Assembly: GCA_937965695.1 (NCBI GenBank)
Contig: CALCKW010000004.1
Span: forward strand, 62,001-126,000
DNA: 64,000 nucleotides
Origin: an uncultured Granulosicoccaceae bacterium
GTDB lineage: Bacteria; Pseudomonadota; Gammaproteobacteria; CALCKW01
Reading direction: 5' to 3'
The translations under genes and the position numbers were made by a program. The notes under the pieces are model-generated. The model saw only the letters and a program-made list of their open reading frames with translations, did not search any database and was not told the origin of the DNA. How positions within the stretch are numbered: position 1 is the stretch's first letter; the number at the start of each line of letters is the position of its first letter. Below, in pieces: positions 3,716-58,310 of the stretch.

Positions 3716-4762
3716 TTAGTAAGGCAGCGGGTTTGCCTTATGGGCGAGCTCAATTTCCTCTATGATTTCATCGGATAATTTAACATCAGCGGCAGACAGT
3801 GCCATGGCCAATTGTGCAGGGGTGGTACTGCCAAAAATCACAGATGCCATAAAAGGTCGTGTGATGCTCCAGGCTAACGCTAAGTGTACGGGTTCGATAC
3901 CGTGTTTATTCGCAATATCGATGTAGGCTTGCACAGCAGCGTCAGTTCGAGGCGTGCAGCGTTCGTTCAAGTTGGGGTTATGTGTCATGCGAGATTTTTC
4001 AGGGCATGCGCCGTTTAGGTATTTCCCCGTGAGCAGGCCAGTTGCCAGCGGCGAATAGGCCAGCAGGCCTACATCTTCGTTCACTGATAACTCGGCCATG
4101 TCGGTGTCGTATAGACGGCACATCAACGAGTATTCGTTTTGCATGCTGTGCAGCCGAGGGAGGTTTTTGTCTTCGCTGATGCGCAACCATTGAGAGGTGC
4201 CCCATGCAGACTCGTTCGATAAACCCATATAGCGTACTTTGCCATCTCGCACGAGTTTGTCCGCGGCTTCCAAAACGGATTCCATGTGCGCGAGCGTGGC
4301 GTCGCGATTTAGAGCAACTGGGTCATAGCGCCAATTTTGTCGAAAGTGATAAGAGCCTCGTTCGGGCCAGTGCAGTTGATAGAGATCAATGACGTCTGTT
4401 TGCAAGCGCTTTAAGGATGCTTCGCAGGCGCGGATCATTGAGTCGGCGTTGATGCCTTCGCCGTCCCGAACAAACTTGCCAGGGTTTGTGCCCGTTATTT
4501 TAGTGGCTAAAACGACGTCATTGCGGCGACCGGATTTTGCAAACCATTCTCCAATGACACTCTCGCTATCACCGCAGGTTTCGGCGGCGATAGGGTTGAC
4601 GGGATACATTTCGGCGGTGTCGATGATGTTCACACCAGCATCGAGCGCTTGCTCTATTTGAGCGTGGCCTTCGGCAGTCGTGTTTTGCGTTCCCCAGGTC
4701 ATAGAACCGAGGCAGAGAGCCGATACCTTGAGGTCGGTACGGCCAATCCTATTGTATTGCAT
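3716..4762 (-). CDS. tas: aldo/keto reductase, Tas-like
   Basis: A cytoplasmic NADP-dependent aldo/keto reductase of 348 residues, close in length and sequence to Escherichia coli Tas. The N-terminus MQYNRIGRTDLKVSALCLGS matches the Tas start. The AKR catalytic residues are visible: Asp and Tyr in NIIDTAEMYPV, Lys in VVLATKITG, and His in LYQLHWPERG. The cofactor end reads IFGSTTPAQL. Start ATG 4762 is chosen because it aligns with the family; a longer reading frame to 4846 would overlap the divergent neighbour. The physiological substrate is unknown. Confidence 0.88.
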   Translation of the reverse strand: MQYNRIGRTDLKVSALCLGSMTWGTQNTTAEGHAQIEQALDAGVNIIDTAEMYPVNPIAAETCGDSESVIGEWFAKSGRRNDVVLATKITGTNPGKFVRDGEGINADSMIRACEASLKRLQTDVIDLYQLHWPERGSYHFRQNWRYDPVALNRDATLAHMESVLEAADKLVRDGKVRYMGLSNESAWGTSQWLRISEDKNLPRLHSMQNEYSLMCRLYDTDMAELSVNEDVGLLAYSPLATGLLTGKYLNGACPEKSRMTHNPNLNERCTPRTDAAVQAYIDIANKHGIEPVHLALAWSITRPFMASVIFGSTTPAQLAMALSAADVKLSDEIIEEIELAHKANPLPY

Positions 4763-7523: not shown

Positions 7524-7725
7524 AAGAGAGCCTGCAAGTCATTGAGTTAGAATCGATAAATGATGCATCAATGCGTTGATCTTGACCAGCTGGCCAATTT
7601 GGTGGCAAAACACCGGATTTTGGTATTGCCTTATGACAGAGCTCAACGCAGAATATAAACATATTCAAATAACAAACAATGTAGAATTGTTTTCTTGAGC
7701 TTACAGCGTGAGAGGAAAAGGGACA

Positions 7726-9645
7726 ATGGCGACAATAAGCAGACGTGCTTTGTTAAAGATGATGGCGGCCACTGGTGCGGGCGCCGCGGGCCTAGGTATT
7801 GGCCGTGTAGCTTTTGGCGAAAGCCACAGTGCAATGCCGAATCCTGAAACATTCTACGACGCACCCATGAAAGGGGATGCACGTATTATTCACCTCACCG
7901 ATGTGCATGGCCAGCTCAAGCCTATTTATTTTCGGGAGCCCAATGTCAATCTCGGTATTGCCGACGCTTATGGTCGCGCTCCGCACCTTGTGGGACGAAA
8001 ATTCCTTGAAGCGATGGGGATAGAAGAAGGTTCTCCTGAAGCCTATGCCTACACTTATCTCAACTTTGAAAAAGCGGCCAAGAAATACGGCCGAATGGGC
8101 GGCTTCTCGCATATCAAAACGCTGGTTGACCAGTTGCGTGAGCAGGCAGGCGGCGTCGACAGGACACTGACCCTTGATGGCGGAGACACATGGCAGGGCT
8201 CAGGCACTAGCCTGTGGACGCGAGGGGTAGACATGGTAGAGGCGTGCAATATTCTGGGTGTCGATGTCATGGTCGGTCACTGGGAGTTCACCTACCCAGA
8301 GGCCGAAGTTCTCAATAATGTCGCGCTCTTCAAAGGTGATTTCATTGGTCAGAATGTGCGGGTGACTGAAGATGCTCTGTTCAGCGATGAATACCCTGAG
8401 ATGGTAGAGAAATACGACGGTAACGGGCTCTTTGATGAAGACAGTGGTCACGCCTTTCAGCCTTACGTAATCAAAAACGTCAACGGCAAAAAAATCGCTG
8501 TGATGGGGCAGGCCTTTCCGCGAACTGCCAATGCAAATCCACCTGAATTTTTTCCTGACTGGTCATTTGGGCTACGCACAGGCGACATGCGTGATCTTGC
8601 CAAGACAATTCGCGAAGAACACAACCCTGATGCTGTCGTTTTGGTGTCGCATTCGGGCATGGATGTGGACATCAAGATGGCCCAAGAGATACCCGGCCTA
8701 GATGCCGTATTCGGCGGTCACACGCACGATGGTGTACCTAAACCACTCGAGATAAAAAATGGTGATGGGGGCACATGTTTTGTCACTAACGCAGGCTGCT
8801 CGGGAAAATTCATTGGTGTGATGGATTTTGCTTTCGACGATGGTAAATTAGCCAATGTCGATTATAAGATGTTTCCCGTCTTTCAAGATATGCTGCCAGC
8901 TGACCCAGAGATGGAAGCCTTCCTGACGCAACTTGATAACACGATTTATGATGAGAATGTGGTAGAGAGTCGCGCGGAGGATCGCAAAAACAGTGCGGCG
9001 CGTCTAGGTAAAACATTTGGCGAAATCACGGGTGAAGAATTGGCCATTGCCGGTGAAACACTTTATCGCCGAAGCAATTTTATGGGCACTTGGGATCAAG
9101 TCATATGCAACGCATTGCGAGAAGAATTCTCTGCCGATGTCGCTATGTCCGCAGGCGTGCGTTGGGGTACCACGGTGCCCGAAGGTGAAATGATCACCAT
9201 GGATGAAGTGCTAAACCAGTGTTCGATGACTTATGGTGAAACCTATAGTAACGAGATGACCGGAAAGCAGTTGCTGGATGTATTAGAACAAGTTGCCGAC
9301 AACTTGCTTGATCCAGATCCGTATTTGCAATCCGGTGGAGACATGGTTCGTGTTGGTGGCTTGGACTACACCATCGATCCGACTCAGGCACTGTATAGTA
9401 GAATCACGGATGCTCGCCTTGACGACGGCAGTGCCATCGAACCGGACAAAACATATAAAGTAGCTGGATGGGCGGTGGTTAGTAACACACCAGATGGCCC
9501 AATGATTTGGGATGTTATTCGTAACTACATCATCAAAAATCGTGACAATAACAAAGTGCTTTTTTTACCAAAAGTAAACTACCCGAAGCTTGTTGGAGTG
9601 GGCGATAATCCTGGTGTTGCCGACTATCCTGGTGAGTTAGCTTAA
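7726..9645 (+). CDS. soxB: thiosulfohydrolase SoxB (periplasmic, Tat-exported)
   Basis: SoxB hydrolyses the terminal sulfate from thiosulfonate groups carried on SoxY during thiosulfate oxidation. This 639-residue protein starts with a twin-arginine signal (SRRALLKMMAATG, then an Ala/Gly-rich helix). It has the two-metal phosphoesterase motifs in order: HLTDVHGQ, GGDTWQGSG, MVGHWEFTY, LVSHSGMDVD and GGHTHDG. The GHWEFTY form separates SoxB from 5'-nucleotidases, which read GNHEFD. The C-terminal domain (YGETYSNEMTGKQLLDVLE) is intact. Start ATG 7726 follows an AGAGGAAAAGGG stretch. No soxXYZAC genes are adjacent, so its partners must be encoded elsewhere. A strong terminator follows. Confidence 0.93.
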   Translation: MATISRRALLKMMAATGAGAAGLGIGRVAFGESHSAMPNPETFYDAPMKGDARIIHLTDVHGQLKPIYFREPNVNLGIADAYGRAPHLVGRKFLEAMGIEEGSPEAYAYTYLNFEKAAKKYGRMGGFSHIKTLVDQLREQAGGVDRTLTLDGGDTWQGSGTSLWTRGVDMVEACNILGVDVMVGHWEFTYPEAEVLNNVALFKGDFIGQNVRVTEDALFSDEYPEMVEKYDGNGLFDEDSGHAFQPYVIKNVNGKKIAVMGQAFPRTANANPPEFFPDWSFGLRTGDMRDLAKTIREEHNPDAVVLVSHSGMDVDIKMAQEIPGLDAVFGGHTHDGVPKPLEIKNGDGGTCFVTNAGCSGKFIGVMDFAFDDGKLANVDYKMFPVFQDMLPADPEMEAFLTQLDNTIYDENVVESRAEDRKNSAARLGKTFGEITGEELAIAGETLYRRSNFMGTWDQVICNALREEFSADVAMSAGVRWGTTVPEGEMITMDEVLNQCSMTYGETYSNEMTGKQLLDVLEQVADNLLDPDPYLQSGGDMVRVGGLDYTIDPTQALYSRITDARLDDGSAIEPDKTYKVAGWAVVSNTPDGPMIWDVIRNYIIKNRDNNKVLFLPKVNYPKLVGVGDNPGVADYPGELA

Positions 9646-9656
9646 CGTGTAATAAC

Positions 9657-9687
9657 AAAGCAGTCTTTATTGAGGCTGCTTTTTTTA
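9657..9687 (+). terminator. rho-independent terminator of soxB
   Basis: The arms AAAGCAG and CTGCTTT flank a short loop, extended by further pairs, and are followed by a run of eight T. It lies 12 bases after the soxB stop, so soxB is a single-gene transcript at its 3' end. Confidence 0.85.
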
Positions 9688-9985
9688 ATTAAAAACTCCT
9701 TCTCCTCCAATATTTCCTTTTGCCTCCACTTCGGCAACCGCTCCCACGACTTCGCCAATATATTTGTCAGCACTAAAATAAAAATTTTTGTATGTAACTG
9801 GTTTTTGATCAATATTAGATTTGTATGCCCAACAAACAGTATTCCATACTTGTCATATAGACTTTAAGTCTGGACTTGGCTCGCCGATATTAGCATAAGA
9901 ATAAGGACTATTTGATTCTCGCTATTCAGAAAACTTTATTCTAAGCGGGTTAATGTTAAAGAGTTTGAGTCAGGCGAAAACTGCT
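9688..9985. other. AT-rich leader region of the H-NOX/c-di-GMP operon
   Basis: About 298 bases of AT-rich sequence with no credible gene. It must contain the promoter of the H-NOX operon. I see no clear operator, and a possible 65-codon frame inside has no coding character. Confidence 0.5.
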
Positions 9986-10570
9986 ATGTACGGAATGATT
10001 AATCGGGCAATAGAAGACTTAGTCGTCGCGACAGACGGTCGCGAGACATGGGATGAAATTCTAGACAAAGCCGATATCAATGTGGGCGAATTTAATGACT
10101 GTGAAAGTTATGATGACGCTTTGACTTTCAAACTTGTTGCGGCTGCGAGTGAAGTCACTGGACAGTCTTCTGATTCAATCTTACACGCATTTGGTCGTCA
10201 CTGGATTCTATACACTGGCCGGGAAGGATGGGGAGCTGTGTTTGACTCAGCCGGCAATAACTTTATCGATTTTATTCGTGGACTTGATGCTATGCATTCG
10301 CGTGTTCAGCTTGCAATGCCGCATCTAAAAATGCCCAGCTTCTCAGTGATTCCTACAGAAATTGACGGCCAGTTTACAATCGGATATCGCTCTGATAGAG
10401 AAGGATTCTCACCCATGGTTGTAGGCTTACTCACCGGTCTCGCGGAGCAATTCAATGAGCGTTGGGACATCGAACAGACTGGATGGCGTTCGGAAAATGG
10501 ATTTGACAGCTTCACGGTCAGAGACGTCTCAATAGATTGCGCTCAAGAGAGGGCTATCAGTGCAGGCTAA
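9986..10570 (+). CDS. H-NOX heme-based NO/O2 sensor protein
   Basis: A 194-residue heme nitric-oxide/oxygen-binding protein. The start MYGMINRAIEDLVV matches the family N-terminus. The proximal heme ligand is His about 104 in GLDAMHSRV, and the heme-propionate motif YxSxR is present as YRSDR (Tyr about 134). These numbers agree closely with characterised bacterial H-NOX proteins, which supports ATG 9986 (AGG 11 bases upstream) over the in-frame ATG at 9953. No Tyr needed for O2 binding can be assigned by eye, so NO selectivity is likely but unproven. It overlaps the next gene, a GGDEF-EAL protein, by 11 bases and probably controls it. Confidence 0.92.
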   Translation: MYGMINRAIEDLVVATDGRETWDEILDKADINVGEFNDCESYDDALTFKLVAAASEVTGQSSDSILHAFGRHWILYTGREGWGAVFDSAGNNFIDFIRGLDAMHSRVQLAMPHLKMPSFSVIPTEIDGQFTIGYRSDREGFSPMVVGLLTGLAEQFNERWDIEQTGWRSENGFDSFTVRDVSIDCAQERAISAG

Positions 10571-12338
10571 AGACCAACAACCGTTGCAGCTCAAGCAGCT
10601 TTTCCCTTTCTTTGTTCAATTTCAAGCGGGCCCTGCCGGTAAAATTATTTCCTGTGGATCGGCTATTGGGAAAATATTTGATCGCTCTTTGACCGATCAA
10701 AATTTTAGTGAACACTTTGAAATCACCCGCCCGGCAAATGCAAGTAACAGTCACCGTTTTTTTCAACAGCAATCTGCAAGTGTTTTGTTTATAAATTGCT
10801 TGAATACATCTGCACGATTGCGTGGGCAAGTGGTGCGCTACGATGAAAAAAGTTATATTTTTATTGGTTCGTTACTAGTATCTGAAGCGACAACCATTGA
10901 AAAAAATGGTCTCAAAATAACTGATTTTGCTTTACACGATACTACCCCCGATGTTGTCATACTCCATCGATTCAGAGAAATGCAGTTAGCCGGCCTTGGG
11001 CGGAAGTCCGCCGCTTTGCAAGCGGCGCTTAATGAACGAGATTTGTACAGTGAAAAAGCAGCAACCGATCCTTTAACTGGATTGCTCAATCGCCGTGCTT
11101 TTTGGGAACAGTGCGAACCCATTTTAAGTAAAACTGATGCGGAATATCCTGCAGTTGTTTTGGCGCTGGATCTAGACGGTTTTAAACAAATAAACGATGA
11201 GCATGGCCATCGCGCAGGTGATAGGGTCTTGGTGGAGGTCAGTAAACGCCTTATTCGTTCAGTCCGTGCAAGTGATGTTGTTGCCCGAGTGGGAGGTGAT
11301 GAATTTGCGGTTCTTTTGGCTGGATCTCCAGATGTTGAAATTAGTGGCTTGATTGAACGCTTGCATAAAGTGCTTTCTGGGCCACTGATCCACGGAGGTG
11401 TGTCCTATAAAGTTAGTGCCAGCATTGGCGCCGTAGCCGCTGTGAATGCAGAAAGCCTCGATCAACTTGTGTCTGATGCTGATATTGCTATGTACAACGG
11501 CAGAGTTGATCGGACGAACAGTGCCACTTGGTTTACCGCAGAAATGCGTACAAAACACAGAGAACAAAAAGAGTTAACTCAGGACTTATATACCGCTTTA
11601 AAAGAAGGAGGAATCCAACAGGCATACCAGCCGATCGTCGATTATGACAAAAGAAACATATCGGCTTTTGAGGTTCTGGCTCGCTGGCAGCACCCGACAC
11701 ATGGCAATATTGGCCCTGACAAGTTTATAGACTTTGCTCAGCAAGCGGGGATTGTTCCAATGCTTGATAGAGCCATGCTCTCAGCTGCGCTAGAAACACT
11801 TCAGGACTGGCATAAAATAGGACACCGCGTTGGCATGCAAGTGAATCTTTCAGGGCTCTCTGTCACACCAGACTTGCCGGAGTTTGTCGCTGAGCAGATG
11901 AGAAAAAATGCTGTGCCGGCCAGGTATCTTACCTTGGAACTGACTGAAACGTGGCTTGTACAGAACGAGAAAGAGTTGGGGATCATCCTAGGTGAATTAT
12001 CTGAGTTAGGCGTGAATTTACATTTAGATGATTTTGGTACTGGATTTTCCTCACTGTCGCATTTGCAATCGATGCCTATCAATGGAATAAAGATAGACCG
12101 TTCTTTTGTAGCACTGGCACTTGAAGACGACCGTTCCCGGCAATTGATTGAAGCGACGCTTGCAATATCTCGGTTACTGAATCTTGAAGTTGTCGCTGAG
12201 GGCATTGAAAACGAAAAGCAATCTCAACTGATCCAGCGATTGGGTTGTGATTTTGGTCAGGGGTATTTGTATTCAAAGCCATTGAATCGTGATCGAGCAA
12301 CATCGTTATTAGCTTCAAATTTTAAGCTTGCTGCTTGA
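10560..12338 (+). CDS. H-NOX-associated diguanylate cyclase/phosphodiesterase (HNOBA-GGDEF-EAL)
   Basis: A 592-residue soluble enzyme of c-di-GMP turnover, made from a GTG start inside the H-NOX 3' end. The N-terminal part, roughly residues 10-135 (LFPFFVQFQ onward), resembles the H-NOX-associated HNOBA domain that docks the sensor. The GGDEF domain starts near residue 168 (DPLTGLLNRRAF). Its active site GGDEF is at 245-249, and an inhibitory RxxD site (RASD) lies five residues before it. The EAL domain has EVL-A-R near 371, NLSG, ELTE, LDDFGTGFSSL, KIDRSF, VAEGIEN and GQGYLYSKP, so all catalytic residues appear intact. Both activities are possible. The expected role is gas-controlled biofilm or motility switching. 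Confidence 0.92.
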   Translation: MQAKDQQPLQLKQLFPFFVQFQAGPAGKIISCGSAIGKIFDRSLTDQNFSEHFEITRPANASNSHRFFQQQSASVLFINCLNTSARLRGQVVRYDEKSYIFIGSLLVSEATTIEKNGLKITDFALHDTTPDVVILHRFREMQLAGLGRKSAALQAALNERDLYSEKAATDPLTGLLNRRAFWEQCEPILSKTDAEYPAVVLALDLDGFKQINDEHGHRAGDRVLVEVSKRLIRSVRASDVVARVGGDEFAVLLAGSPDVEISGLIERLHKVLSGPLIHGGVSYKVSASIGAVAAVNAESLDQLVSDADIAMYNGRVDRTNSATWFTAEMRTKHREQKELTQDLYTALKEGGIQQAYQPIVDYDKRNISAFEVLARWQHPTHGNIGPDKFIDFAQQAGIVPMLDRAMLSAALETLQDWHKIGHRVGMQVNLSGLSVTPDLPEFVAEQMRKNAVPARYLTLELTETWLVQNEKELGIILGELSELGVNLHLDDFGTGFSSLSHLQSMPINGIKIDRSFVALALEDDRSRQLIEATLAISRLLNLEVVAEGIENEKQSQLIQRLGCDFGQGYLYSKPLNRDRATSLLASNFKLAA

Positions 12339-16004: not shown

Positions 16005-17717
16005 TTAGAGATATCCCCATAACAGGGCCGCAGCAAATACGATCATTGCTATTCCCACCATTGATGCGCTGCCCGCGTCTCTGACGAGATATCCGTTACT
16101 GAATTGTCGACCAAGCCATACGCCGGCTAGGCTTGTCACTTGGTCAATGGATTCTTTCACCCGATCGACAAGAGAAAAACTGTAGTTCAACACGGGAGTG
16201 AGTGCTCGCGGAATAAGACGGCGGTAGACCCAGTCCGTGTCTAGGTTGGTGCTGCGAATCTCTGGAGGATAGAGACCGGTTCGAAACAATACAACGAATG
16301 CCAGTGCTGAGAAAAAGAGCAGTTGCAGTTGTGCAACCACATGATCACTGGTGTAGGGGTTGTATTGCATAGCCAACTCTGGGTTTGGCAGTAAGGCGTA
16401 AAGAGGGGCGGGGTAAACGCCAATAGCGACGCATAAGAATGCGGTGATTCCCATGGCCCAAAGCATGTTAGTGGGTGCTTCCTCTACTTTATGACCTTGA
16501 TCATGCGCAAAAAAAGTAAAGAACGGAATCTTAATGCCCGAGTGGTCCATAACGCCAGCAGAAGCCATCAACAGTACACACCACACAACCCACATATGTT
16601 CCTCGGCCGCGGCGGTGAGAATCATCGATTTGGAAACAAAACCTGAGAACATGGGGAAAGCCGATATCGACATCGCACCAATGATGCAGAAGAAAGTCGT
16701 CAGCGGCATAGATTTGTACAGGCCCCCAAGCTCGGATGCTTTCATAGTGCCTACGCGGTGCAAGACCGCACCCATCGACATAAATAATAGAGCCTTATAT
16801 AGGATATGACAGAAGGCGTGGGCGGCTGCACCGTTGATGGCGAGGTCCGTTCCTATACCGACACCAACCACCATAAAACCGAGTTGGTTGTTTAGGCTAT
16901 AGGCGAGAACACGACGCAGATCGTTCTCGATGACGGCAAAGAATATAGGGAAGGCGGTCATTGTCGCGCCTATCCAGATTAATATTTCTTCACCGGCAAA
17001 GCCGCGGGCCAATGCGTAGACAGCGAGCTTGGTGGTGAACGCTGATAGTACAACAGTGCCTGTTGGGGTTGCTTGAGGATAAGAGTCTTGCAGCCAGTTG
17101 TGCAGCAGTGGGAATGCGCACTTGATGCCAAAGGCCAAGAAAATGAGTTTGCCACCCGTGGTTTCTAGTCCGATGTGGTCAAATGCAATGCTTCCTGTGG
17201 TGTTGAGCAGCAACAATGCGCCGGCGAGCAGCAGTACGCCAGAGCCCACTTGTATAATTAAATAGCGGATACCGGTTTGAATCGCCTTCTCAGTTCGACT
17301 GGCCCAGATTAAAAACACTGACGCAATGGCAGTCAATTCCCAATAGACGAATAGTGTGATGAGATCACCCGCCAATACGGCACCAACACCGGCACCTGCG
17401 TAGATCAAACCGGAAGCGTCTTGCAGTCGACCCATCTCGGCACCTTGGCGCAAGTGTTGGGAATAGAGACTGTTTATACAGGCGGCAATACAAAAGATAA
17501 GCGCCCAGATGAACGACAGACTATCCACCCGTACGGTGACGAGTTGGTGCCCAAAGAGTTCCCACAACACGTGGTTGCCAGGTGTCATGAGACACAGTTG
17601 CGTCAATGCGGCTATTGGCGCACCGAACAACACAATATTACGGCCATTGCGGGGCAGTAGCGGCATCAGCGCACCGCCGAAGATAAGTATTAGCGCGGGG
17701 CTGAGATCATCAATCAT
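16005..17717 (-). CDS. third Mrp D-type (NuoL/M/N-like) antiporter subunit
   Basis: A 570-residue proton-antiporter-type membrane subunit and the last gene of the Mrp-like operon. About 14-16 helices are expected. The conserved helix-5 Glu is in TLFVYWELTAIASVFLIWAS. Lys and His residues of the central half-channel are in GIKCAFPLLHNWLQDSYPQA and TTKLAVYALARG. A C-terminal extension (VDRVKESIDQV, then a final helix) recalls the longer L-type subunits. Canonical Mrp has only MrpA and MrpD of this class, so this is a third paralogue. It overlaps the preceding small gene by eight bases. Its job is presumably Na+/H+ or H+ translocation within the complex. Confidence 0.87.
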   Translation of the reverse strand: MIDDLSPALILIFGGALMPLLPRNGRNIVLFGAPIAALTQLCLMTPGNHVLWELFGHQLVTVRVDSLSFIWALIFCIAACINSLYSQHLRQGAEMGRLQDASGLIYAGAGVGAVLAGDLITLFVYWELTAIASVFLIWASRTEKAIQTGIRYLIIQVGSGVLLLAGALLLLNTTGSIAFDHIGLETTGGKLIFLAFGIKCAFPLLHNWLQDSYPQATPTGTVVLSAFTTKLAVYALARGFAGEEILIWIGATMTAFPIFFAVIENDLRRVLAYSLNNQLGFMVVGVGIGTDLAINGAAAHAFCHILYKALLFMSMGAVLHRVGTMKASELGGLYKSMPLTTFFCIIGAMSISAFPMFSGFVSKSMILTAAAEEHMWVVWCVLLMASAGVMDHSGIKIPFFTFFAHDQGHKVEEAPTNMLWAMGITAFLCVAIGVYPAPLYALLPNPELAMQYNPYTSDHVVAQLQLLFFSALAFVVLFRTGLYPPEIRSTNLDTDWVYRRLIPRALTPVLNYSFSLVDRVKESIDQVTSLAGVWLGRQFSNGYLVRDAGSASMVGIAMIVFAAALLWGYL

Positions 17718-17970
17718 AATAATTTTCGTCGCGTTTCAGGATGCGTCGCAGTTGCTTGGCGCTAAGCACAATGAAGCAGTAGGCAACAAAGCCGTAAACT
17801 GCGTAGAAAGCTGGTATTTCCTCAAAGCTAAAGTGGCCATGTCTCGACCAGACGAAATCGGCTAATACCGATAAAATGCAAGCAGCGACCAAAAGGTAAA
17901 CCAGTTTGCTGACATTTTTCGGGTTGTCCAGCCAGCGCTTTTCGTCCCCGTCTTTTTTTTGATTAGACAT
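17710..17970 (-). CDS. small two-helix membrane protein of the Mrp-like operon
   Basis: An 86-residue protein with a charged N-terminus (MSNQKKDGDEKRWLDNPKN), two hydrophobic helices (VYLLVAACILSVLADFVW and AFYAVYGFVAYCFIVLSA) and a basic C-terminus. I do not recognise a named family. Its place between two D-type subunit genes, 14 bases after one and overlapping the other, argues that it is an accessory subunit of this antiporter. Confidence 0.8.
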   Translation of the reverse strand: MSNQKKDGDEKRWLDNPKNVSKLVYLLVAACILSVLADFVWSRHGHFSFEEIPAFYAVYGFVAYCFIVLSAKQLRRILKRDENYYD

Positions 17971-17984
17971 CGGTTTATCTCAAA

Positions 17985-19448
17985 TTAACGCAGCGGAATC
18001 AGCTGCACAAAACTGTAAATGGCATCGCCAAACAAAAACGCGAGAAGGCACATGCTGGCAGTCACGCAAAGCGGAATCACCATCATCAGGGGTGCTTCAT
18101 CTATGCCTTGTTTTTCGTTGTCTTCGCTGGGTCGAAAAAATCCGTTGGCGACAATTGGCAAAAGGTAAGCAATATTGAGCAAAGAGCTTATGATCAACAC
18201 GGCTGCCATTATCCAATGACCGGTGTCAAAGGAGGCTGTGATGAGAAACCACTTACTCCAGGCCCCACCCAAGGGGGGAAGGCCAATAATACAAAGGGCC
18301 GCGACAAAAAATGCACCGAAGGTAAAGGGCATTTTTCGACCGAGACCATTGAGCTCGCTGATTTTGGTCTTTTTGGTGTGCACGTAGATAGCACCGGCAC
18401 AGAAAAAGAGTGTTATTTTTCCGACGGCGTGCATCACGATATGCATGGCGGCGCCATAAACACCTGCCGCCACAGCAAGCATGGCTCCCAGCACCACATA
18501 GCTGAGTTGACCAATTGTGGAATAGGCCAAGCGGGCTTTGAGGTTGTCTTGGCGCATGGCGATTATTGATGCGGCCGTTAGTGTAAATGCCGCAACCCAC
18601 ATCATTGCTTCACCAGCGCCTGTCTCGGCAAGGAAATCCACACCGATCACGTAAACAACGACTTTGGTGATCGTGAATACGCCTGCCTTAACAACCGCCA
18701 CCGCGTGCAGTAAGGCACTCACGGGGGTGGGGGCGACCATTGCACCGGGTAACCAGCGGTGAAAAGGCATCAGTGCGGCCTTTCCAACACCAAAGGCAAA
18801 CAGAGCGACCAACCAAGGAAGATAAACGGGATCTAAATTGCCCTGCAAAATGCCACCCGCTTTAAAATCGAGTGTTCCGGTAACGCCCCAAGTGATGATG
18901 ATTGCTGGCAGTAGAAAACCAATCGAAGTGGTCAATAAAAGAGACAAATAGGTTCTGCCACCTCGTTGTGCATCTTCGGTGCCTTTGTGCGTCACCAGCG
19001 GGTAGGTGGCGAGCGTCAGCATTTCGTAGAAAATAAATAGAGTGAGTAGATTGCCGGCTAATGCGATGCCCATCGTTGCGCCAATGGAAACAGCAAAACA
19101 AAAGAAAAACTGCGTGTGATGTTCTTCTTTGTTTTTGCGCATATAGCCGATGGCGTAAAGTGTCGTCGGAATCCAGAGTACGGCCGCTACCGTGGCAAAC
19201 AACAGACCCAACGGTTCAACCGTGAGTCGAATAGCAATGTCTTCAATAGGCGCCAGTAATACCCAGTCTAAGTTTTCCCCGCGCAACGTGGCGGGGTAGA
19301 GTACGATCGTGCAAATTAAAGTGAGGATTGTGCCTACGATGCTGACACCGTCTCGCACATTGGCGCGTGACATATTGGCAGCGCCTAACAGGGCGACAAA
19401 AACCGGCACCGCGATAAGCAGAGCGGGTGCAATACTTTCGATTGTCAT
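17985..19448 (-). CDS. second Mrp D-type antiporter subunit
   Basis: A 487-residue NuoL/M/N-type membrane subunit. Helix 5 carries the conserved Glu in LLTLFIFYEMLTLATYPLVT, and the half-channel Lys/His set is in FGVGKAALMPFHRWLPGAM and ALLHAVAVVKAGVF. A further Lys is in MHAVGKITLFFCAGAIY. The ATG overlaps the stop of the preceding D subunit by four bases. It is closer to the N-terminal part of MrpA than to MrpD in motifs such as APTPVSALLHA, so it may stand in for the missing MrpA N-domain. That assignment is inference. Confidence 0.88.
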   Translation of the reverse strand: MTIESIAPALLIAVPVFVALLGAANMSRANVRDGVSIVGTILTLICTIVLYPATLRGENLDWVLLAPIEDIAIRLTVEPLGLLFATVAAVLWIPTTLYAIGYMRKNKEEHHTQFFFCFAVSIGATMGIALAGNLLTLFIFYEMLTLATYPLVTHKGTEDAQRGGRTYLSLLLTTSIGFLLPAIIITWGVTGTLDFKAGGILQGNLDPVYLPWLVALFAFGVGKAALMPFHRWLPGAMVAPTPVSALLHAVAVVKAGVFTITKVVVYVIGVDFLAETGAGEAMMWVAAFTLTAASIIAMRQDNLKARLAYSTIGQLSYVVLGAMLAVAAGVYGAAMHIVMHAVGKITLFFCAGAIYVHTKKTKISELNGLGRKMPFTFGAFFVAALCIIGLPPLGGAWSKWFLITASFDTGHWIMAAVLIISSLLNIAYLLPIVANGFFRPSEDNEKQGIDEAPLMMVIPLCVTASMCLLAFLFGDAIYSFVQLIPLR

Positions 19449-20923
19449 GGTGTCGCTCCCAGTAGTGCTTGAACTACGCGATCAGCGGCGCCCAAGGTGA
19501 CACCTGTGTCTATGCCGAAATATATACAAGTGAAGCTGAGAAGAGCTGCAGGTATAAGAATAGTTCTCGGTGGCCGGGCACCATGTGCAGCGACCTTTTC
19601 TGACATGGGTTTGAACCAAAGGTAGTCGAGCACGCGCCAGACATAAGCCACCGCCATGAGAGAGGAGATGACGAGCACCATTGCCAGCGGCCACCAACCA
19701 TACTCGATGACCGCCAAAATAAGGTACCACTTAGTGATAAACCCAGCGGTTAAAGGCACTCCCACTAGGCTGATGCCAGCGACAGCAAAGGCCGCTACGG
19801 TCCAGGGCATACGTTTGGCTGCGCCGGACAAGTCTTCGAGCTTGGAGGAGCCAACGCTGTACACCATAGCGGCAACGCACAAAAACAAAGCGCTTTTAAC
19901 CAATCCGTGGTTAAAAATATGTACCACGCTTGCAGTGAGACTGGTCTCGCTGGCTATTGATATACCAAGGACAATGTACGACAACTGCGCGACTGATGAA
20001 TAAGCGAGCACACGTTTGATGTCGTCTTGATAAATGGCAGCCATTGAGCCAACCAAGATGCCTGCGACAGCCATAGGCATCAGGACATGTTGTACTTGTA
20101 TTACTTCAAAAGAAAAGTCTACACCGAATATGCCGAAGATAAATCGCAGCATGACATATAGGGAAACTTTGGTTGCAGTACCTGCTAAGAAAGCACTGAC
20201 GACTGATGGGGCATAGGTGTATCCATTCGGAAGCCAGTAGTGCAAGGGATAAAGCGCAACTTTAATACTGACACCCAAAATAAAAAAGCCAAAGGCTGCC
20301 TGCATGACACGGTTACCGTGCAGCGCAGGTAGACGCTCAGCGAGATCTGCCATATTGAGCGTGCCTGTTAGCTGGTAGAGCAAACCGATACTGATCAATA
20401 TAAAAGTAGCGCCGATGGTACCCATGATTAGATAGCGAAAAGTTGCTATCAGAGCTCTCCGATCGCGACCCATTGCAATTAGCGCATAGGTGCTCAAAGA
20501 GGAAATTTCTAGAAAGACAAATACATTAAAAGCATCGCCGGTGATACAGATGCCGATCATTGAGGCGAGCAACAACAAGTAAGCTGTGTAGTAGAGCGGA
20601 ATTTTTTCTTCGTCGATCTCTTTACGGATGCTCTCACGTGCGGCCGTTATCACGACGGCTGCTATGCCTGTGATCAGCAGCAATAGCATCGCATTTAAAC
20701 TGTCTATGCGGAGCTCAATGCCCCAAGGTGGCGCCCAGCCACCGAGTTGGTAGCTGATTGGGCTTTGTTCCAACACCTGGGAGTTGAGTACAATAGCCAC
20801 CACTAGTGCACCCCAAGTAATAATTGCAGCCAAAGCCCAAGCGAATTTTTCGCGGGTGACCAAGGCGCACAAAGGCGCGGCTATTAGAGGTAAAAGTATT
20901 TGTATGACGGGCCACTGATTCAT
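19445..20923 (-). CDS. mnhD: Na+/H+ antiporter subunit D (MnhD/MrpD)
   Basis: A 492-residue core antiporter subunit of the multisubunit Mrp/Mnh complex in the cytoplasmic membrane. Its conserved Glu is in VFVFLEISSLSTYALIAMG, and the Lys-containing helices are KVALYPLHYWLPNGYTYAPS and LAGTATKVSLYVMLRF. The segment SVVHIFNHGLVKSALFLCVA is also typical of MrpD. It sits directly after mnhC with an ATGA overlap, the usual order. All residues needed for proton transfer appear present. Confidence 0.92.
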   Translation of the reverse strand: MNQWPVIQILLPLIAAPLCALVTREKFAWALAAIITWGALVVAIVLNSQVLEQSPISYQLGGWAPPWGIELRIDSLNAMLLLLITGIAAVVITAARESIRKEIDEEKIPLYYTAYLLLLASMIGICITGDAFNVFVFLEISSLSTYALIAMGRDRRALIATFRYLIMGTIGATFILISIGLLYQLTGTLNMADLAERLPALHGNRVMQAAFGFFILGVSIKVALYPLHYWLPNGYTYAPSVVSAFLAGTATKVSLYVMLRFIFGIFGVDFSFEVIQVQHVLMPMAVAGILVGSMAAIYQDDIKRVLAYSSVAQLSYIVLGISIASETSLTASVVHIFNHGLVKSALFLCVAAMVYSVGSSKLEDLSGAAKRMPWTVAAFAVAGISLVGVPLTAGFITKWYLILAVIEYGWWPLAMVLVISSLMAVAYVWRVLDYLWFKPMSEKVAAHGARPPRTILIPAALLSFTCIYFGIDTGVTLGAADRVVQALLGATP

Positions 20924-21270
20924 GGTTGAGCCTCGTCTTCTGCTTGTATGTCACTTTCTTCAATGGAACTGTAGGACTCGCGGATACGGATGACGAGAGC
21001 CAGTGCCAAGGCGGTCGTTGCAACGCTGACAACGATTGCCGTGAGAATCAAAACATGCGGTAAAGGGTTGCTATAAAGTGTGTATTGGCTATCAGCGATC
21101 GGAGCGGTGCCGCCTCCAACCTTACCCATGGTGATGAATAAGAAGAATACGGATGTCTGAAATATATTCAGGCCCACGACTTTCTTGACAAGATTGTCAC
21201 TAGCGATGGTGGCATAGAGCCCCAAGAGCATAAGCGCAAATACAGCCCAATAGTTAAAATAGGCACTCAT
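20920..21270 (-). CDS. mnhC: Na+/H+ antiporter subunit C (MnhC, NuoK-like)
   Basis: A 116-residue NuoK-like subunit with three helices. It has the family segments YATIASDNLVKKVVGLNIFQ and PLPHVLILTAIVVSVATTAL, the latter being the conserved P-x-ALxLTAIVI region. Start ATG 21270 overlaps the mnhB stop by four bases; the frame runs further back, but only within mnhB. It probably contributes to the ion path between subunits A/B and D. Confidence 0.92.
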   Translation of the reverse strand: MSAYFNYWAVFALMLLGLYATIASDNLVKKVVGLNIFQTSVFFLFITMGKVGGGTAPIADSQYTLYSNPLPHVLILTAIVVSVATTALALALVIRIRESYSSIEESDIQAEDEAQP

Positions 21271-21722
21271 GTGTTTCGTCCTCCGCCAACAAAGGAGTAA
21301 AACAATAAAATCATCACACTGGCTACGGTGATACCTACACCCAGCTCTATGCTGAGTATGCCGTAGTGTTGGCCGTGCAAAGGGTCGTGCACCAAGGCAC
21401 TGTAATTTAGAAACTCCGCACCTCGCCACATAGAGATCACCCCAGTCATCAGATAGAGCATCCATCCGATCACCGCGCCGATGCGAACTGCATCTGGGCT
21501 AATCATGCGTTGGGTGGCACGCACGCCAAAGATCAAGCCGTGGGCTATTATTCCAACCGCGAATATAACGCCAGCTTGAAAGCCACCACCAGGCCCATAG
21601 TCGCCGTGCCATTGCACGTACAATGCGAATAACAAAATGGGGGCCATCAGCAGCACCGTAACACCGCGAATAATCGGGTTGCCGACCAGTGAAGTTGGTT
21701 TATTCAGCATGTTTTTTTCCAT
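21267..21722 (-). CDS. mnhB: Na+/H+ antiporter subunit B (MnhB domain)
   Basis: A 151-residue subunit with the MnhB domain. Diagnostic segments are LYVQWHGDYGPGGGFQAGVI, which carries the invariant GPGGGF, and LGVGITVASVMILLFYSF at the end. Four helices are expected. An internal ATG at 21710 preceded by GATGGA is an alternative start. The gene overlaps the 3' end of the upstream DUF4040 gene, so the two are translationally coupled. Confidence 0.92.
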   Translation of the reverse strand: MEKNMLNKPTSLVGNPIIRGVTVLLMAPILLFALYVQWHGDYGPGGGFQAGVIFAVGIIAHGLIFGVRATQRMISPDAVRIGAVIGWMLYLMTGVISMWRGAEFLNYSALVHDPLHGQHYGILSIELGVGITVASVMILLFYSFVGGGRNT

Positions 21723-22254
21723 CTTTTGGTGCGGGTAAGTCGCGGCGATATCGACGTCTCAATCCCGGACCGAGTAACAGCAAAACGCCTACACCTGCGG
21801 TAAACACGACGCCGGTCTCTCCGAGAGTGTCGTAACCCCGATAGCTGGCAAGCACCGACGTGACCATATTGGGAGGCCCAACTTCATTCGGTGATGTCTC
21901 TGTATAACGAGGCGCAACGTGCTGATGTACAGGTGCCAAAGGATCGCCGTAATCGGGCATATCAAAGCTGGCGTAGACTAAAAGAGCTGCAACAAGGCTG
22001 CACAGACCTATGGCAAACCAAGGTTTATTTTTTGGCTTTCGCTCTGTTCTTCCAACTTGAGACATAGTGGCGAGAAATAAAATTGTTGTGATGCCTGCAC
22101 CAACCGCCGCCTCTGTGAAAGCGACATCTACCGCGTCTTGCAGCATGAAAAAACAGGCTGACAATAAACTGTAGATACCTGTCAGCATGGCAACTGCAAA
22201 AAGATCGCGAATCAGCACCAGTGCAAAACCTACTACGAGAAGCATGACGAGCAA
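21700..22254 (-). CDS. DUF4040 (MbhD/MbhE-like) subunit equivalent to the MrpA C-terminus
   Basis: A 184-residue membrane subunit. The first part is a DUF4040 domain (SLLSACFFMLQDAVDVAFTE, then AAVGAGITTILFLATMS), the module called MbhD in membrane-bound hydrogenases. The last part, VTSVLASYRGYDTLGETGVV, is the MbhE-like segment normally found at the end of MrpA. This gene therefore supplies as a separate protein what is the C-terminal third of MrpA in canonical operons. It begins 11 bases after mnhG. Confidence 0.88.
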   Translation of the reverse strand: MLVMLLVVGFALVLIRDLFAVAMLTGIYSLLSACFFMLQDAVDVAFTEAAVGAGITTILFLATMSQVGRTERKPKNKPWFAIGLCSLVAALLVYASFDMPDYGDPLAPVHQHVAPRYTETSPNEVGPPNMVTSVLASYRGYDTLGETGVVFTAGVGVLLLLGPGLRRRYRRDLPAPKDGKKHAE

Positions 22255-22265
22255 GCTTGTATTGA

Positions 22266-22607
22266 TCAGGAATTCGATGGGGAATCCTCCGAGTTGTCTT
22301 TAGAGGAGGGTAGCAAAGGGATGTCTCCACTATGCACCGCTGCCCTGGCAAGCGCGTGAATAGCGGCAGGCCCAGTCAGCAAAACAAATAGATAGATAAA
22401 TAGCAGTTTAATAATGACTAGGTAGTCTGGCGCTTGTAGGGCCATACCAAAAAACAACATGCCCACGCCAAGGGAATCCATGATGCCGCCCGCATGCGTG
22501 CGGCTAAAAAAATCTGGCAACCGCAAAAGACCTAGACCGGCCGTGATGCAGAAAAAGCAGCCAGCCAATATAAATATCCAGCTGAGAAAATCGAGGAAAA
22601 CACTCAT
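22266..22607 (-). CDS. mnhG: Na+/H+ antiporter subunit G (MnhG)
   Basis: A 113-residue subunit with three helices and the PhaG_MnhG pattern: LAGCFFCITAGLGLLRLPDF, then FSRTHAGGIMDSLGVGMLFF. The conserved R-L-P-D-x-x-x-R-x-H-A segment is intact. ATGA overlap with mnhF. It belongs to the peripheral EFG group needed for complex assembly or activity. Confidence 0.92.
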   Translation of the reverse strand: MSVFLDFLSWIFILAGCFFCITAGLGLLRLPDFFSRTHAGGIMDSLGVGMLFFGMALQAPDYLVIIKLLFIYLFVLLTGPAAIHALARAAVHSGDIPLLPSSKDNSEDSPSNS

Positions 22608-22891
22608 GCTTCTTCCTCCTCGCCATCTTTGTCGCTGTAGCCTAAGCTGCCATATTTGAAAAACTTGAGCACAGCAATAGTACCTATGAAGTTGATTAGC
22701 GCGTAAACCAACGCAATATCGAGAAATTCGGGTCGATCTGTCAGGAAACCTAGCACAGCGATAAACAAGATAGAGGCAGTGCCAAAAGTATTAACCGCAA
22801 GGATACGGTCATACACGGATGGTCCCATCAGCGCGCGTGTTAATGCCATGATCATGGAAACTAAAACAGCTAGCATAGCGAAGCTAAACAT
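22604..22891 (-). CDS. mnhF: Na+/H+ antiporter subunit F (MnhF)
   Basis: A 95-residue three-helix subunit. It shows the MrpF/PhaF pattern: ALMGPSVYDRILAVNTFGTA, with the conserved P-x-x-x-D-R-I-x-A-x-N, followed by DIALVYALINFIGTIAVLKF. A charged tail ends GEEEEA. One-base overlap with the mnhE stop. Confidence 0.92.
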   Translation of the reverse strand: MFSFAMLAVLVSMIMALTRALMGPSVYDRILAVNTFGTASILFIAVLGFLTDRPEFLDIALVYALINFIGTIAVLKFFKYGSLGYSDKDGEEEEA

Positions 22892-23361
22892 TATTCAGGC
22901 TCCAGTGCGGTAACTCGCCGATCCATTTCTTGGAAGCCATCTTCTTCGAAACTGCTGGCTTCCAAAGCATGTACCAGGACAGAACCGTGCTTGGCATCGA
23001 TGCTTAAAGTGCCTGGTGTAAGAGTGACGGAATTGGCATATACCACGAGACCGAGGCTGCTTTTCTGAGTTGCCGCTACATTTTCTACGGCAGGGCTTAG
23101 ATTCATATCGCGGCGCCAAAGTATCTTGGCGACTGCTAGATTAGAGAGCACTATCTGCCATAAAAGCCAGGGCACATATTTTGGCATCTTCATGAAAATA
23201 TGAAACGACTGAGGGTTTGTATTCACGACCTCAAGGCGAATCAGTAAGTAGTACACGAAAGCACAGGACAAAAGCCCAAAGCTGAGCATCAGAGGATCAA
23301 AATGGCCTGACCACAGGAGCCAGGTAATCACTAGTAGCGCTAGAGTTGCATGCTTCTTCAT
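22891..23361 (-). CDS. mnhE: Na+/H+ antiporter subunit E (MnhE), first gene of the operon
   Basis: A 156-residue subunit: N-terminal membrane helices, then a cytoplasmic domain with the MrpE signature SVTLTPGTLSIDAKHGSVLV and the following VHALEA. The segment VPWLLWQIVLSNLAVAKIL, carrying the WQ-I-x-x-S-N pattern, is also typical. It opens the operon E-F-G-DUF4040-B-C-D-D-small-D, the gene order known from archaeal MBH/MBX modules rather than from the Bacillus mrpABCDEFG order. The promoter must lie within 23362-24022. Confidence 0.9.
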   Translation of the reverse strand: MKKHATLALLVITWLLWSGHFDPLMLSFGLLSCAFVYYLLIRLEVVNTNPQSFHIFMKMPKYVPWLLWQIVLSNLAVAKILWRRDMNLSPAVENVAATQKSSLGLVVYANSVTLTPGTLSIDAKHGSVLVHALEASSFEEDGFQEMDRRVTALEPE

Positions 23362-50948: not shown

Positions 50949-51300
50949 GCGTGACTCCAAAAAAAGTGAGTTTAAAAGATGCTTGCAGTGTGCAAGTTTG
51001 GTGAGGAATTGGCAATGTTGAATCTCTTAAGTAGTTGCTGCAAGTGCCTCTTTCGACGGCAGTTTTCAAGATGATTTTGAGGTGGCCGCTAGGACTGCCA
51101 AGAGCCGTATTTTAAAGCTTAGATCTTTAAGTAATTCAATAATTTAGACACAACAAATGGACGGTACAAAAACGGTGTGACAAGGCGAAAATTTGTTCAC
51201 CTATTAATTTGACCTAACCTTATGTTTGTATTGAATTTAATTCAATTTATTGCCTCCATCACTGTTTCTAAAGAGGCTACTTACCAGATGCTGGAACCTT

Positions 51301-54039
51301 GTGAAGTCGACCGACGAGAATATCGCCAGTGAACACGAACTGCACGCTCTAAAGGACGTGCGGCTAGTTTACCGTGGCTGTAGCTTAGCCTTTGCCGGTT
51401 GGCTGAATCAGGGCTCTGTTAGCGATGTTATCGGGCGAACTGACCAGCAGTTGTTGAACTCGACCTTTGCGCAACAGCTGAAGGCTGAAGAGTCCCTCGT
51501 TTTGCGGGATAGTGTACCGAGCGTTGCGACCGCTATTGTGCCGCCTGGCAGTTGCTTGTTGCGGCTCCCTTTGCGAGGTCGCAATCAGATTCAAGGTTTG
51601 GATCTGTTGCTGGTCGAAAATGAGCGCTTATATGACGTTTTGCTTCGACATTTCTTTCAGTCGGCTGAAGTCTGCTCGTCCTCCACGCCAAAAAATCTCA
51701 GTGTTTATAGTCTTGATGAGATTCTATATAACAGCAAGCTTGCAAGTGAGAACCAAAAGGATCCGGCCCGTTGGGAGAGTATTAAGCCTCAACTGCCCGA
51801 CGAAATTTTGGGATGGCTCGATGCCGACGGGTCTCAGCCGGATGTTCGTAGCCGCGCTGGAGTTTTGCAACGCTCGGAGAATGTCCAACACACTGATCAA
51901 AACATTTGGTGGTGCCTATTGTATTGGGGTACTGAACCCGCAATTGCTGTTATAGAAAATCTTTCACTGAATGATGTGACCGTTGGCTCGCAATTGTGGA
52001 ATCAGAAGCCCACTGTCGATGGATACCGCGGTTTAGTCGAGAAACATGCCGCTGGGTTGATACTTTTGAACAGTGGGCAGCCAGTGTTTGCAAATGCAAG
52101 TGCTGCTCTTATGCTTGGGTTTGCCGATGTCGAAACGCTGATTGAGCATGGAGACATCGTGGGTTTGGTGCCTCAAGAACTCAAAAACTATCTGTCGCTA
52201 GAAATCTTAGATTCGACTCAACAAGTACACCGGAGTGAAGGGGAATGGATTTCTCAGTCTGGTCGTAAAAGCTTTCTCATGTCGCATTGGCAGTCAATCG
52301 AATGGGCGAACCAATCTTGTATTTATCTGACCTTGACCGACATTAGCCACCGCCGTCGCGCCGAGCAGAGCCAACGCCGAAACCAACAGCGCTTTCAAGA
52401 TTTCGCCGAGCTTGCAGCAGATTTTTTCTGGGAATTAGATACTTCATTGCGCTTCAATTTTGTATCTCGTCGATTTGAGAACATTCTGCAAATTGCACCC
52501 CAAAATGTCTTGGGCTTGTCGATCAGACAGTTTTACGAGCGCTATTTTCCTCAGCCCGCACCGCCTCAGTGGCGACGACATTTACAGGCTTTGTCTCAGC
52601 ACAAGGCAGAACGAGAGTTTGAATACCGCTGGACCAGAGCTGATGGCAAAGAGCGGGTGATCGTGCACACTTGCCAGCCACTTTTTGATGCAGAAGGTAA
52701 TTTTGAAGGTTATCGTGGTGTTGGCCGTGATGTGACACACGATCGAGCATTGGCTGCACAAGTCCAGTTCCATGCGACACATGACGCGCTGACTGGTCTT
52801 GTCAATCGCCGAGAATTTGAACGCCTATTGGAAGAGGCCTTACACGACTCAGACAACAGGCAAAGGCACGCCTTATGTTATGTAGATTTAGATAACTTCA
52901 AAATTGTCAACGACACCTGCGGGCATTCTGCAGGGGATGAATTGTTGCGCCAGCTTGGTGATTTATTCAGGGAGCGTGTACGTCAGAGCGATGTAGTCGG
53001 TCGCCTCGGTGGGGATGAGTTCGGTATTTTAATTTATTCCTGCAGCATGGAGCAGGCTCTGGATCTCGCAGAAAAAATTAGACTGAGTGTGATGCAGTTT
53101 GAATTTTTATGGGAAAACAAGCGTTTTTCTATTGGGGCTAGCATTGGTTTATCCGGTATTGTTCCAGATACCTCTTCAGCGAACGAAGTCATGCGGGCTG
53201 CGGATACGGCTTGTTATGCGTCCAAAGAAAGTGGGCGCAATCAAGTCACGACAGCTTCTGAGGAGATGGGGTTACGTCGCACCGACGCAGAACGCGTTTT
53301 TCAAGTGGGCAATTTGCTTGACGAAGGGCAGTTCCGACTTTGGCGGCAACCCATTCTCGCCCTCAATGACAAACACTACCGTGGTGATCACTTTGAAATT
53401 CTGATGCGCTTGGTCAAACCCGATGGCACTTTAATCCTGCCTGAGACGATCATGCCGGCAGTAGAGCGATACGGCCTTTGCCCAAAACTTGACCGTCTGG
53501 TGTTTGACCGTTGTCTCGCATGGATTGTCTCTGCACGTGATCAAATAGAACAACTAGCTGTTTGCAACATCAATCTGAGTGGTCCGAGTCTGCTAGATCA
53601 AAACCTTGTTGCTCACATGGAAACCGAAATAAAGCGCAGTGGAATTCCTCCGCAAAAACTTTGTTTTGAACTCTCTGAAACAGCGACGATAGCCAATCTG
53701 AGTAGTGCACGTGATGTGATCGCTAGGTTGGGAAAAGTGGGTTGTAAGTTCGCATTGGATGACTTTGGCAGTGGTGTCTCTTCATTTACATTCTTGCAAG
53801 GTTTGCCCATTGATTTCGTGAAAATTGATGGCAGTTTTGTCACACGCATGACGGACGACAAGGTGTGTGAAGAAATGGTGGATTCGATCAACCGCGTCAG
53901 CCATGTCCTGAGGTGCTCGACGGTGGCTAAATCAGTTGAGAATGCTCGCACGCTAGACGCCTTAGAGAGCCTAGGAGTAGACTTTGCGCAGGGCAATTAT
54001 ATCGGCCCACCAGAAGCCATAGACGAGCGCTTGGTTTAA
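51301..54039 (+). CDS. PAS-PAS-GGDEF-EAL protein with degenerate EAL site
   Basis: A cytoplasmic c-di-GMP protein of about 912 residues. An unassigned N-terminal region is followed by two PAS-like domains (about 242-345, YRGLVEKHAAGLILLNSGQP, and about 364-485, RFQDFAELAADFFWELD). The GGDEF domain begins near 495 and has an intact GGDEF at about 570 and an RQSD inhibitory site. The EAL domain has EIL-M-R, NINLSG, ELSET, LDDFGSGVSS and KIDGSF. However, the AEGVE motif reads AKSVE at about 877, so the proposed catalytic Glu is Lys. It is probably a cyclase or effector. The start is uncertain: GTG 51301 is taken, and the frame extends to TTG 51250. Confidence 0.88.
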   Translation: MKSTDENIASEHELHALKDVRLVYRGCSLAFAGWLNQGSVSDVIGRTDQQLLNSTFAQQLKAEESLVLRDSVPSVATAIVPPGSCLLRLPLRGRNQIQGLDLLLVENERLYDVLLRHFFQSAEVCSSSTPKNLSVYSLDEILYNSKLASENQKDPARWESIKPQLPDEILGWLDADGSQPDVRSRAGVLQRSENVQHTDQNIWWCLLYWGTEPAIAVIENLSLNDVTVGSQLWNQKPTVDGYRGLVEKHAAGLILLNSGQPVFANASAALMLGFADVETLIEHGDIVGLVPQELKNYLSLEILDSTQQVHRSEGEWISQSGRKSFLMSHWQSIEWANQSCIYLTLTDISHRRRAEQSQRRNQQRFQDFAELAADFFWELDTSLRFNFVSRRFENILQIAPQNVLGLSIRQFYERYFPQPAPPQWRRHLQALSQHKAEREFEYRWTRADGKERVIVHTCQPLFDAEGNFEGYRGVGRDVTHDRALAAQVQFHATHDALTGLVNRREFERLLEEALHDSDNRQRHALCYVDLDNFKIVNDTCGHSAGDELLRQLGDLFRERVRQSDVVGRLGGDEFGILIYSCSMEQALDLAEKIRLSVMQFEFLWENKRFSIGASIGLSGIVPDTSSANEVMRAADTACYASKESGRNQVTTASEEMGLRRTDAERVFQVGNLLDEGQFRLWRQPILALNDKHYRGDHFEILMRLVKPDGTLILPETIMPAVERYGLCPKLDRLVFDRCLAWIVSARDQIEQLAVCNINLSGPSLLDQNLVAHMETEIKRSGIPPQKLCFELSETATIANLSSARDVIARLGKVGCKFALDDFGSGVSSFTFLQGLPIDFVKIDGSFVTRMTDDKVCEEMVDSINRVSHVLRCSTVAKSVENARTLDALESLGVDFAQGNYIGPPEAIDERLV

Positions 54040-58245: not shown

Positions 58246-58310
58246 GAAGATTGCATTGCCATTTGGATCACTCGGCTTTTCGAGAGACCGTATTAGGGTT
58301 GTTAAAATTG

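Follow-up and report, generated by a model that had tools for sequence, protein, structure and literature searches.

A probable two-protein nitric oxide switch on c-di-GMP with an sGC-like H-NOX/HNOBA input and a GGDEF-EAL output in an uncultured Granulosicoccaceae bacterium

H-NOX proteins paired with c-di-GMP enzymes have been described in Shewanella woodyi, Legionella, Dinoroseobacter and Paracoccus, and in some of these the direction of NO control has been measured (passages of PMC8846402). In S. woodyi, SwH-NOX adjoins SwDGC (Swoo_2751/2750), a bifunctional GGDEF-EAL enzyme whose cyclase activity is lowered and whose phosphodiesterase activity is raised by NO-bound H-NOX, while NO-bound H-NOX inhibits the cyclases Lpg1057 and Dgc1 (same passages of PMC8846402). 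In Legionella pneumophila, Hnox1 and Lpg1057 are encoded by overlapping operon genes, H-NOX inhibits this GGDEF/EAL partner, and another H-NOX lies elsewhere with a histidine kinase (excerpts of PMC11237717); the PDE domain in this species is described as likely inactive in the relevant part of PMC8738867. Pairs of the Paracoccus/Dinoroseobacter type (group 5) have a GGDEF partner without EAL, which in the loci we sampled carries an HNOBA domain, and their genes overlap in Paracoccus (PMC5588039). Finally, sGC β1 and the Nostoc H-NOX with its HNOBA-kinase present H-NOX, an H-NOXA PAS domain and a signalling helix in this order, ahead of a guanylate cyclase and a kinase output respectively.

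We analysed a stretch of 64,000 nucleotides (hereafter the window; positions 62,001 to 126,000 of the forward strand of contig CALCKW010000004.1, assembly GCA_937965695.1) from an uncultured Granulosicoccaceae bacterium, in which an H-NOX gene runs into a gene for an HNOBA-GGDEF-EAL protein. The kind of switch to which such a pair would belong is already known, and the window pair adds a member: its genes adjoin and overlap with a GGDEF-EAL partner, as in the SwDGC type; they overlap as in Legionella, although the EAL residues in the window are complete, the two being compared by description; and the partner carries HNOBA, as in group 5, where genes also overlap in the loci we sampled. We consider it probable that the pair forms a two-protein NO switch on c-di-GMP with an sGC-like input, NO most likely lowering c-di-GMP. 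Its layout is as follows:

9986–10570, plus strand: H-NOX (HNOB) heme sensor, 194 aa (Pfam HNOB; PDB alignment to Alr2278)
10560–12338, plus strand: HNOBA-GGDEF-EAL partner, 592 aa (Pfam HNOBA, GGDEF and EAL, each above its cut-off)
10560–10570, plus strand: 11-base overlap, the partner GTG start lying within the end (TAA) of the H-NOX gene (sequence)
10546–10553, plus strand: putative Shine–Dalgarno-like purine-rich segment AGAGAGGG, within the H-NOX gene and before the partner GTG (sequence)

The H-NOX reading frame is open already from an ATG at 9953 in the ORF list; we take 9986 as the better start because the family begins with MYG there and Alr2278 aligned from residue 1. The 11-base overlap with a GTG start, reported in a previous sequence-only reading of this DNA, was confirmed at 10560, where it includes the H-NOX TAA and has AGAGAGGG ahead of it. 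Among 14 related H-NOX/HNOBA pairs measured, including the window pair and that of an uncultured Acidimicrobiales MAG (L005, with the likeliest start taken), the genes share 4 to 17 bases in 11, and in the other three they stand 2 to 12 bases apart. The stop/start overlap backs translational coupling at most, and we rejected the fixed H-NOX:partner stoichiometry also proposed in that reading, which an overlap does not imply. Taken with its domains and motifs, the overlapping gene pair is not a product of chance. That H-NOX and partner would be coincidental, non-interacting neighbours is very improbable, given that the genes overlap, that HNOBA is the H-NOX partner domain by name and by match, and that H-NOX/HNOBA pairing is retained across lineages.

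The product of the 9986 gene matched HNOB (PF07700) in Pfam with 154.7 bits against a cut-off of 25.5 (E 2.5e-45); no NCBIfam model matched it. Its best solved relatives in a PDB search were Nostoc Alr2278 (E about 1e-39) and then sGC β1. Two segments of the gene encode its heme-related residues:

10295–10297, plus strand: codon of the proximal heme ligand His104 (aligned to His105 of Alr2278)
10385–10399, plus strand: YxSxR motif, Y134 R S136 D R138 (alignment)

Pro117 is kept alongside these, and the claim that heme ligand and YxSxR are complete was borne out by His104, Pro117 and Y134/S136/R138. In the alignment, the distal pocket has Trp73 and Met144, coinciding with the Nostoc Alr2278 residues, and no O2-stabilising Tyr, Met144 being aligned to Alr2278 Met144. 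We take this Nostoc residue to occupy the position of Tyr140 in the O2-binding Thermoanaerobacter H-NOX. According to passages of PMC7356049, the apolar pocket of the Nostoc protein does not support a stable Fe–O2 complex, whereas in the O2-binding protein Tyr140 acts as the donor. The Nostoc-like pocket without such a Tyr points to NO as the likely ligand of a heme that the window H-NOX would bind, and makes the question of which activity NO or O2 controls less open than in the sequence-only reading. O2 binders do exist within the H-NOX family (same passages of PMC7356049), and oxidative activation of an H-NOX has been the subject of a paper, to go by part of its text; with no Tyr at the Alr2278 Met144 equivalent and pocket residues matching those of Nostoc, however, sensing of O2 or redox instead of NO is quite unlikely here, and we set O2 sensing aside.

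The partner begins with its input half:

10560–11069, plus strand: HNOBA region, a PAS domain (about residues 6–105) and a long signalling helix (129–169) (profile, fold match)

HNOBA (PF07701) was matched with 57.7 bits against a cut-off of 23.4 in Pfam, in agreement with the H-NOX-associated domain noticed earlier. A profile built from 14 HNOBA N-termini and searched against the PDB matched 2p04, the PAS domain (Nostoc H-NOXA) of a Nostoc punctiforme signal-transduction histidine kinase, at E 3.4e-20, and sGC β1 206–375, through the coiled coil, at E 9.8e-19. Moreover, the predicted model of residues 1–170 (mean pLDDT 85.4) aligned to human sGC β1 206–390 with Z 14.4 and rmsd 5.4 over 162 residues (VIA); the best 12 VIA rows were all sGC or 2p04/2p08 (Z 10.0–14.4), the next PAS row scoring 8.9, and each of the 22 Foldseek hits at E up to 0.001 was an sGC or Nostoc PAS entry. 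The full-length model (mean pLDDT 82.1, pTM 0.56) has the same PAS and a helix (129–168) running into GGDEF. As judged from profile and predicted model, the pair is the sGC β1 input half spread over two genes, the break falling between the heme domain and the PAS, and GGDEF-EAL takes the place of the cyclase; it differs from sGC in being two genes rather than one, and from both sGC and the Nostoc system in its output.

The output half contains the following features:

11058–11516, plus strand: GGDEF domain (Pfam, 137.3 bits)
11265–11276, plus strand: RxxD I-site (RASD), at the usual five-residue spacing to GGDEF (sequence)
11292–11306, plus strand: GGDEF motif (sequence)
11502–11504, plus strand: R315, replacing PleD K442 (alignment)
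11514–11516, plus strand: T319, replacing PleD R446 (alignment)
11580–12281, plus strand: EAL phosphodiesterase domain, every motif present (Pfam, 204.9 bits; motifs)

Applying what we take to be the checklist of EAL residues (EXLXR, N, E, DD loop, K, E, Q), we found EVLAR at 11670 together with NLSG, ELTE, DDFGTGFSSL, KIDR, AEGIE and QGY. None of the GGDEF and EAL motifs is lost in the alignment with MorA and a second solved GGDEF-EAL protein, and all GGDEF core, Mg, guanine-binding and RxxD residues compared are kept. The earlier claim that both sites are intact thus holds for GGDEF, RxxD and all EAL residues compared, but not for two further positions: PleD K442 and R446, which touch GTP phosphates (parts of PMC12943098 and PMC7288161), are here R315, a conservative change, and T319. 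This feature is related to activity and does not define the family; with two of the GTP-phosphate contacts changed in the cyclase site, equal bifunctionality is not to be assumed.

We compared these two positions across sampled proteins, near-duplicates being removed by their last 150 residues, incompletely for partial loci. K at K442 together with R or K at R446 was found in none of eight HNOBA-GGDEF-EAL rows from four genomes and three lineages (the window as three overlapping pieces, G453 and G1028 twice each, and the Acidimicrobiales MAG once), and in 40 of 42 HNOBA-GGDEF rows, the remaining two being alignment gaps. Almost all of these 42 rows belong to a single bacterial family, so that they are not independent of one another. 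The same combination occurs in 39/67 other GGDEF-EAL rows and 32/44 other GGDEF rows, with gaps counted as failures and both sets non-random, picked by window-protein patterns or chance neighbourhood. The Acidimicrobiales MAG protein has R and R, and the genus of G453 K and T. As far as the alignment goes, the departure is common among GGDEF-EAL proteins and no proof of lost activity.

A narrower form of the two-protein switch, overlapping with it, would be an NO-gated phosphodiesterase, whose GGDEF would bind GTP or c-di-GMP as a regulator without synthesising c-di-GMP and whose EAL alone would be gated by H-NOX. We hold this possible, if somewhat doubtful. The R and T at the K442 and R446 equivalents speak for it, as does the absence of at least one canonical residue in all eight HNOBA-GGDEF-EAL rows against none of the 40 evaluable HNOBA-GGDEF rows; likewise, loss of both residues was taken as evidence that the GGDEF of SgmT is inactive (part of PMC3509222). 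SgmT, however, carried a degenerate GGDEF motif as well, while the GGDEF, Mg, guanine-binding and I-site residues of the window partner are complete, R315 is conservative and R318 adjoins T319. Moreover, 28 of the 67 other GGDEF-EAL rows also lack the K plus R/K combination (gaps included), and the single-family origin of most HNOBA-GGDEF rows weakens the comparison.

Of 41 sensors beside HNOBA-GGDEF, four keep the proximal His and 37 have lost it, in agreement with a published figure of less than 10% retention for group 5 (part of PMC8738867); a complete YxSxR appeared in none of these 41 rows. By contrast, the window H-NOX keeps His, and the sensors beside HNOBA-GGDEF-EAL have His and YxSxR in 3/3 rows, their pockets holding Trp and Met (the near-identical G1028 having been removed as a duplicate). 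In loci L149–L167 and L190–L227, with sensors beside HNOBA-GGDEF, the operon is kept despite this loss of heme His (37 of 41) and of YxSxR, as noted for group 5 in the same part of PMC8738867. In an H-NOX tree of 41 rows, a hand-picked subset with seven HNOBA-GGDEF sensors retained, a 100/97 branch sets the HNOBA-linked sensors apart, and those linked to GGDEF-EAL, three sensors from three distant lineages, cluster at 87/96 (90% of 200 bootstrap trees). Lateral spread of the H-NOX/HNOBA-GGDEF-EAL pair would be the simplest reading of this tree. To test for recent insertion, a flanking Lnb-type gene was sought in the genus for an empty-site comparison, and gave a weak match (35% identity) in only one of three congeners. 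We regard as rather unlikely the more far-reaching proposal of a distinct, laterally spread, split sGC-like module in three distant lineages, in which GGDEF would be weakened to a regulator and NO would drive c-di-GMP hydrolysis.

The host genome, like Legionella, has a second H-NOX elsewhere (L002, C66:30113-30586), which is arranged as in an operon beside a short histidine kinase and falls in a different clade; congener G003 has an H-NOX and histidine kinase pair of this kind (L121). In L122 and L124 (G340 and G245), two H-NOX genes lie a few kb apart on one contig, the second with Arg at the proximal His.

Among the genomes sampled, H-NOX with an HNOBA-GGDEF-EAL protein was found in only three others, from two other lineages: the Acidimicrobiales MAG, whose L005 was so classed via locus L173 of its genome, and G453 and G1028, of one genus. 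H-NOX precedes the partner there too, with an overlap of 4 bases in L180 (G453) and probably 17 in L005, and the window partner is 36–38% identical to its nearest relative. HNOBA was found in one of the four genomes of the host family and order, that of the host. In the class, 4/369 genomes matched at E 0.001, two above the cut-off (the host and G314, an HNOBA-kinase), H-NOX being present in 26/369; in the phylum, 24/398 matched, 22 above the cut-off, several covering only the coiled-coil end of the profile; and in the family of G453, 135/394 matched, 126 above the cut-off. Among the loci opened in that family (ten long frames and the returned loci L190–L217, out of 135 matching genomes), GGDEF-EAL partners occurred in G453 and G1028 only, the HNOBA match in L180 scoring 23.2 bits, just below the cut-off of 23.4, and that in its sister L218 25.5 bits. 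A contig search with the whole partner returned mostly generic GGDEF-EAL proteins, L005 being the sole HNOBA-GGDEF-EAL among 80 kept loci. The literature searched, with neither the primary papers nor the 2003 paper on HNOBA among it, held no characterised HNOBA-GGDEF-EAL partner, and we do not claim that the type is unreported. The H-NOX/HNOBA-GGDEF-EAL pair of the window is real and well preserved, and pairs of its type are uncommon among the sampled genomes.

Upstream, the pair is preceded by:

7708–9645, plus strand: soxB (thiosulfohydrolase) (TIGR04486, 693 bits)
9657–9682, plus strand: intrinsic-terminator-like hairpin of 11 pairs with a T tract, lying between soxB and the pair and setting the two apart (scan)

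The scan gave four terminator-like sites, close to shuffles (2.8), and one weak plus-strand promoter-like match upstream of the pair (9752–9779), its promoter total of three comparing with 4.7 in shuffles. An FNR/DNR-like palindrome, TTGATNNNNATCAA, lies at 9805 with two mismatches. With up to two mismatches it occurs 57 times in the window against 36.8 expected (0/100 shuffles as high), and we rejected FNR/DNR-type control of the pair from the 9805 site, which proves nothing among 57 such matches; a perfect copy lies at 4376–4389. NirK had no match in the host genome, and neither had NnrS, for which the search controls were equally silent. Ten neighbouring proteins scanned around soxB contained no other sox-type domains and include HupE/UreJ-type and EamA-type membrane proteins, and Rfam found one tRNA and nothing else over the window. 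Elsewhere in the window are a second c-di-GMP protein (PAS-GGDEF-EAL, 929 aa, 51250–54039), a minus-strand cluster at 16005–23361 resembling an Mrp-type Na+/H+ antiporter (three Proton_antipo_M proteins, Oxidored_q2 and MNHE) and, at 58251–60446, a 731-aa frame fusing a VTT-domain membrane part to a pyridine nucleotide-disulphide oxidoreductase.

To the domains, residues and overlap, the sGC-like input (profile and predicted model) and the pairing in relatives, the two-protein switch adds the binding of heme and NO, an interaction of the H-NOX with its partner and a direction of control, which we infer. The ferrous heme of the H-NOX, held by His104, would bind NO and the fold around it would change; the changed H-NOX would act on the PAS (HNOBA) of the partner, as the sGC β1 H-NOX does on its own PAS and coiled coil; the long helix would carry the change from PAS to GGDEF-EAL; and NO would lower c-di-GMP by inhibition of GGDEF, release of EAL or both. 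By analogy, NO-bound H-NOX most likely tips the balance of the partner in the direction of lower c-di-GMP, and which activity is controlled seems less open than the sequence-only reading had it, SwDGC shifting from cyclase to phosphodiesterase with NO-bound H-NOX (passages of PMC8846402). The window sensor nonetheless differs from SwH-NOX in belonging to the HNOBA-linked, sGC/Nostoc-like clade, SwDGC being compared by description only. L128, the sole locus in our sample with PAS-GGDEF-EAL directly behind H-NOX, is without HNOBA, and the direction of control in other partner types may therefore not carry over; the phenotype sign of c-di-GMP can also differ, as in Paracoccus (PMC5588039).

The pair would offer a compact test system, in which an sGC-type input (heme domain, PAS and helix) is split over two soluble proteins with a c-di-GMP enzyme as output, so that signal transfer from H-NOX to PAS would be measurable with separate parts. 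It also ties sensors with an apparently intact heme site to an HNOBA output group in which the heme ligand is missing from the best-sampled members.
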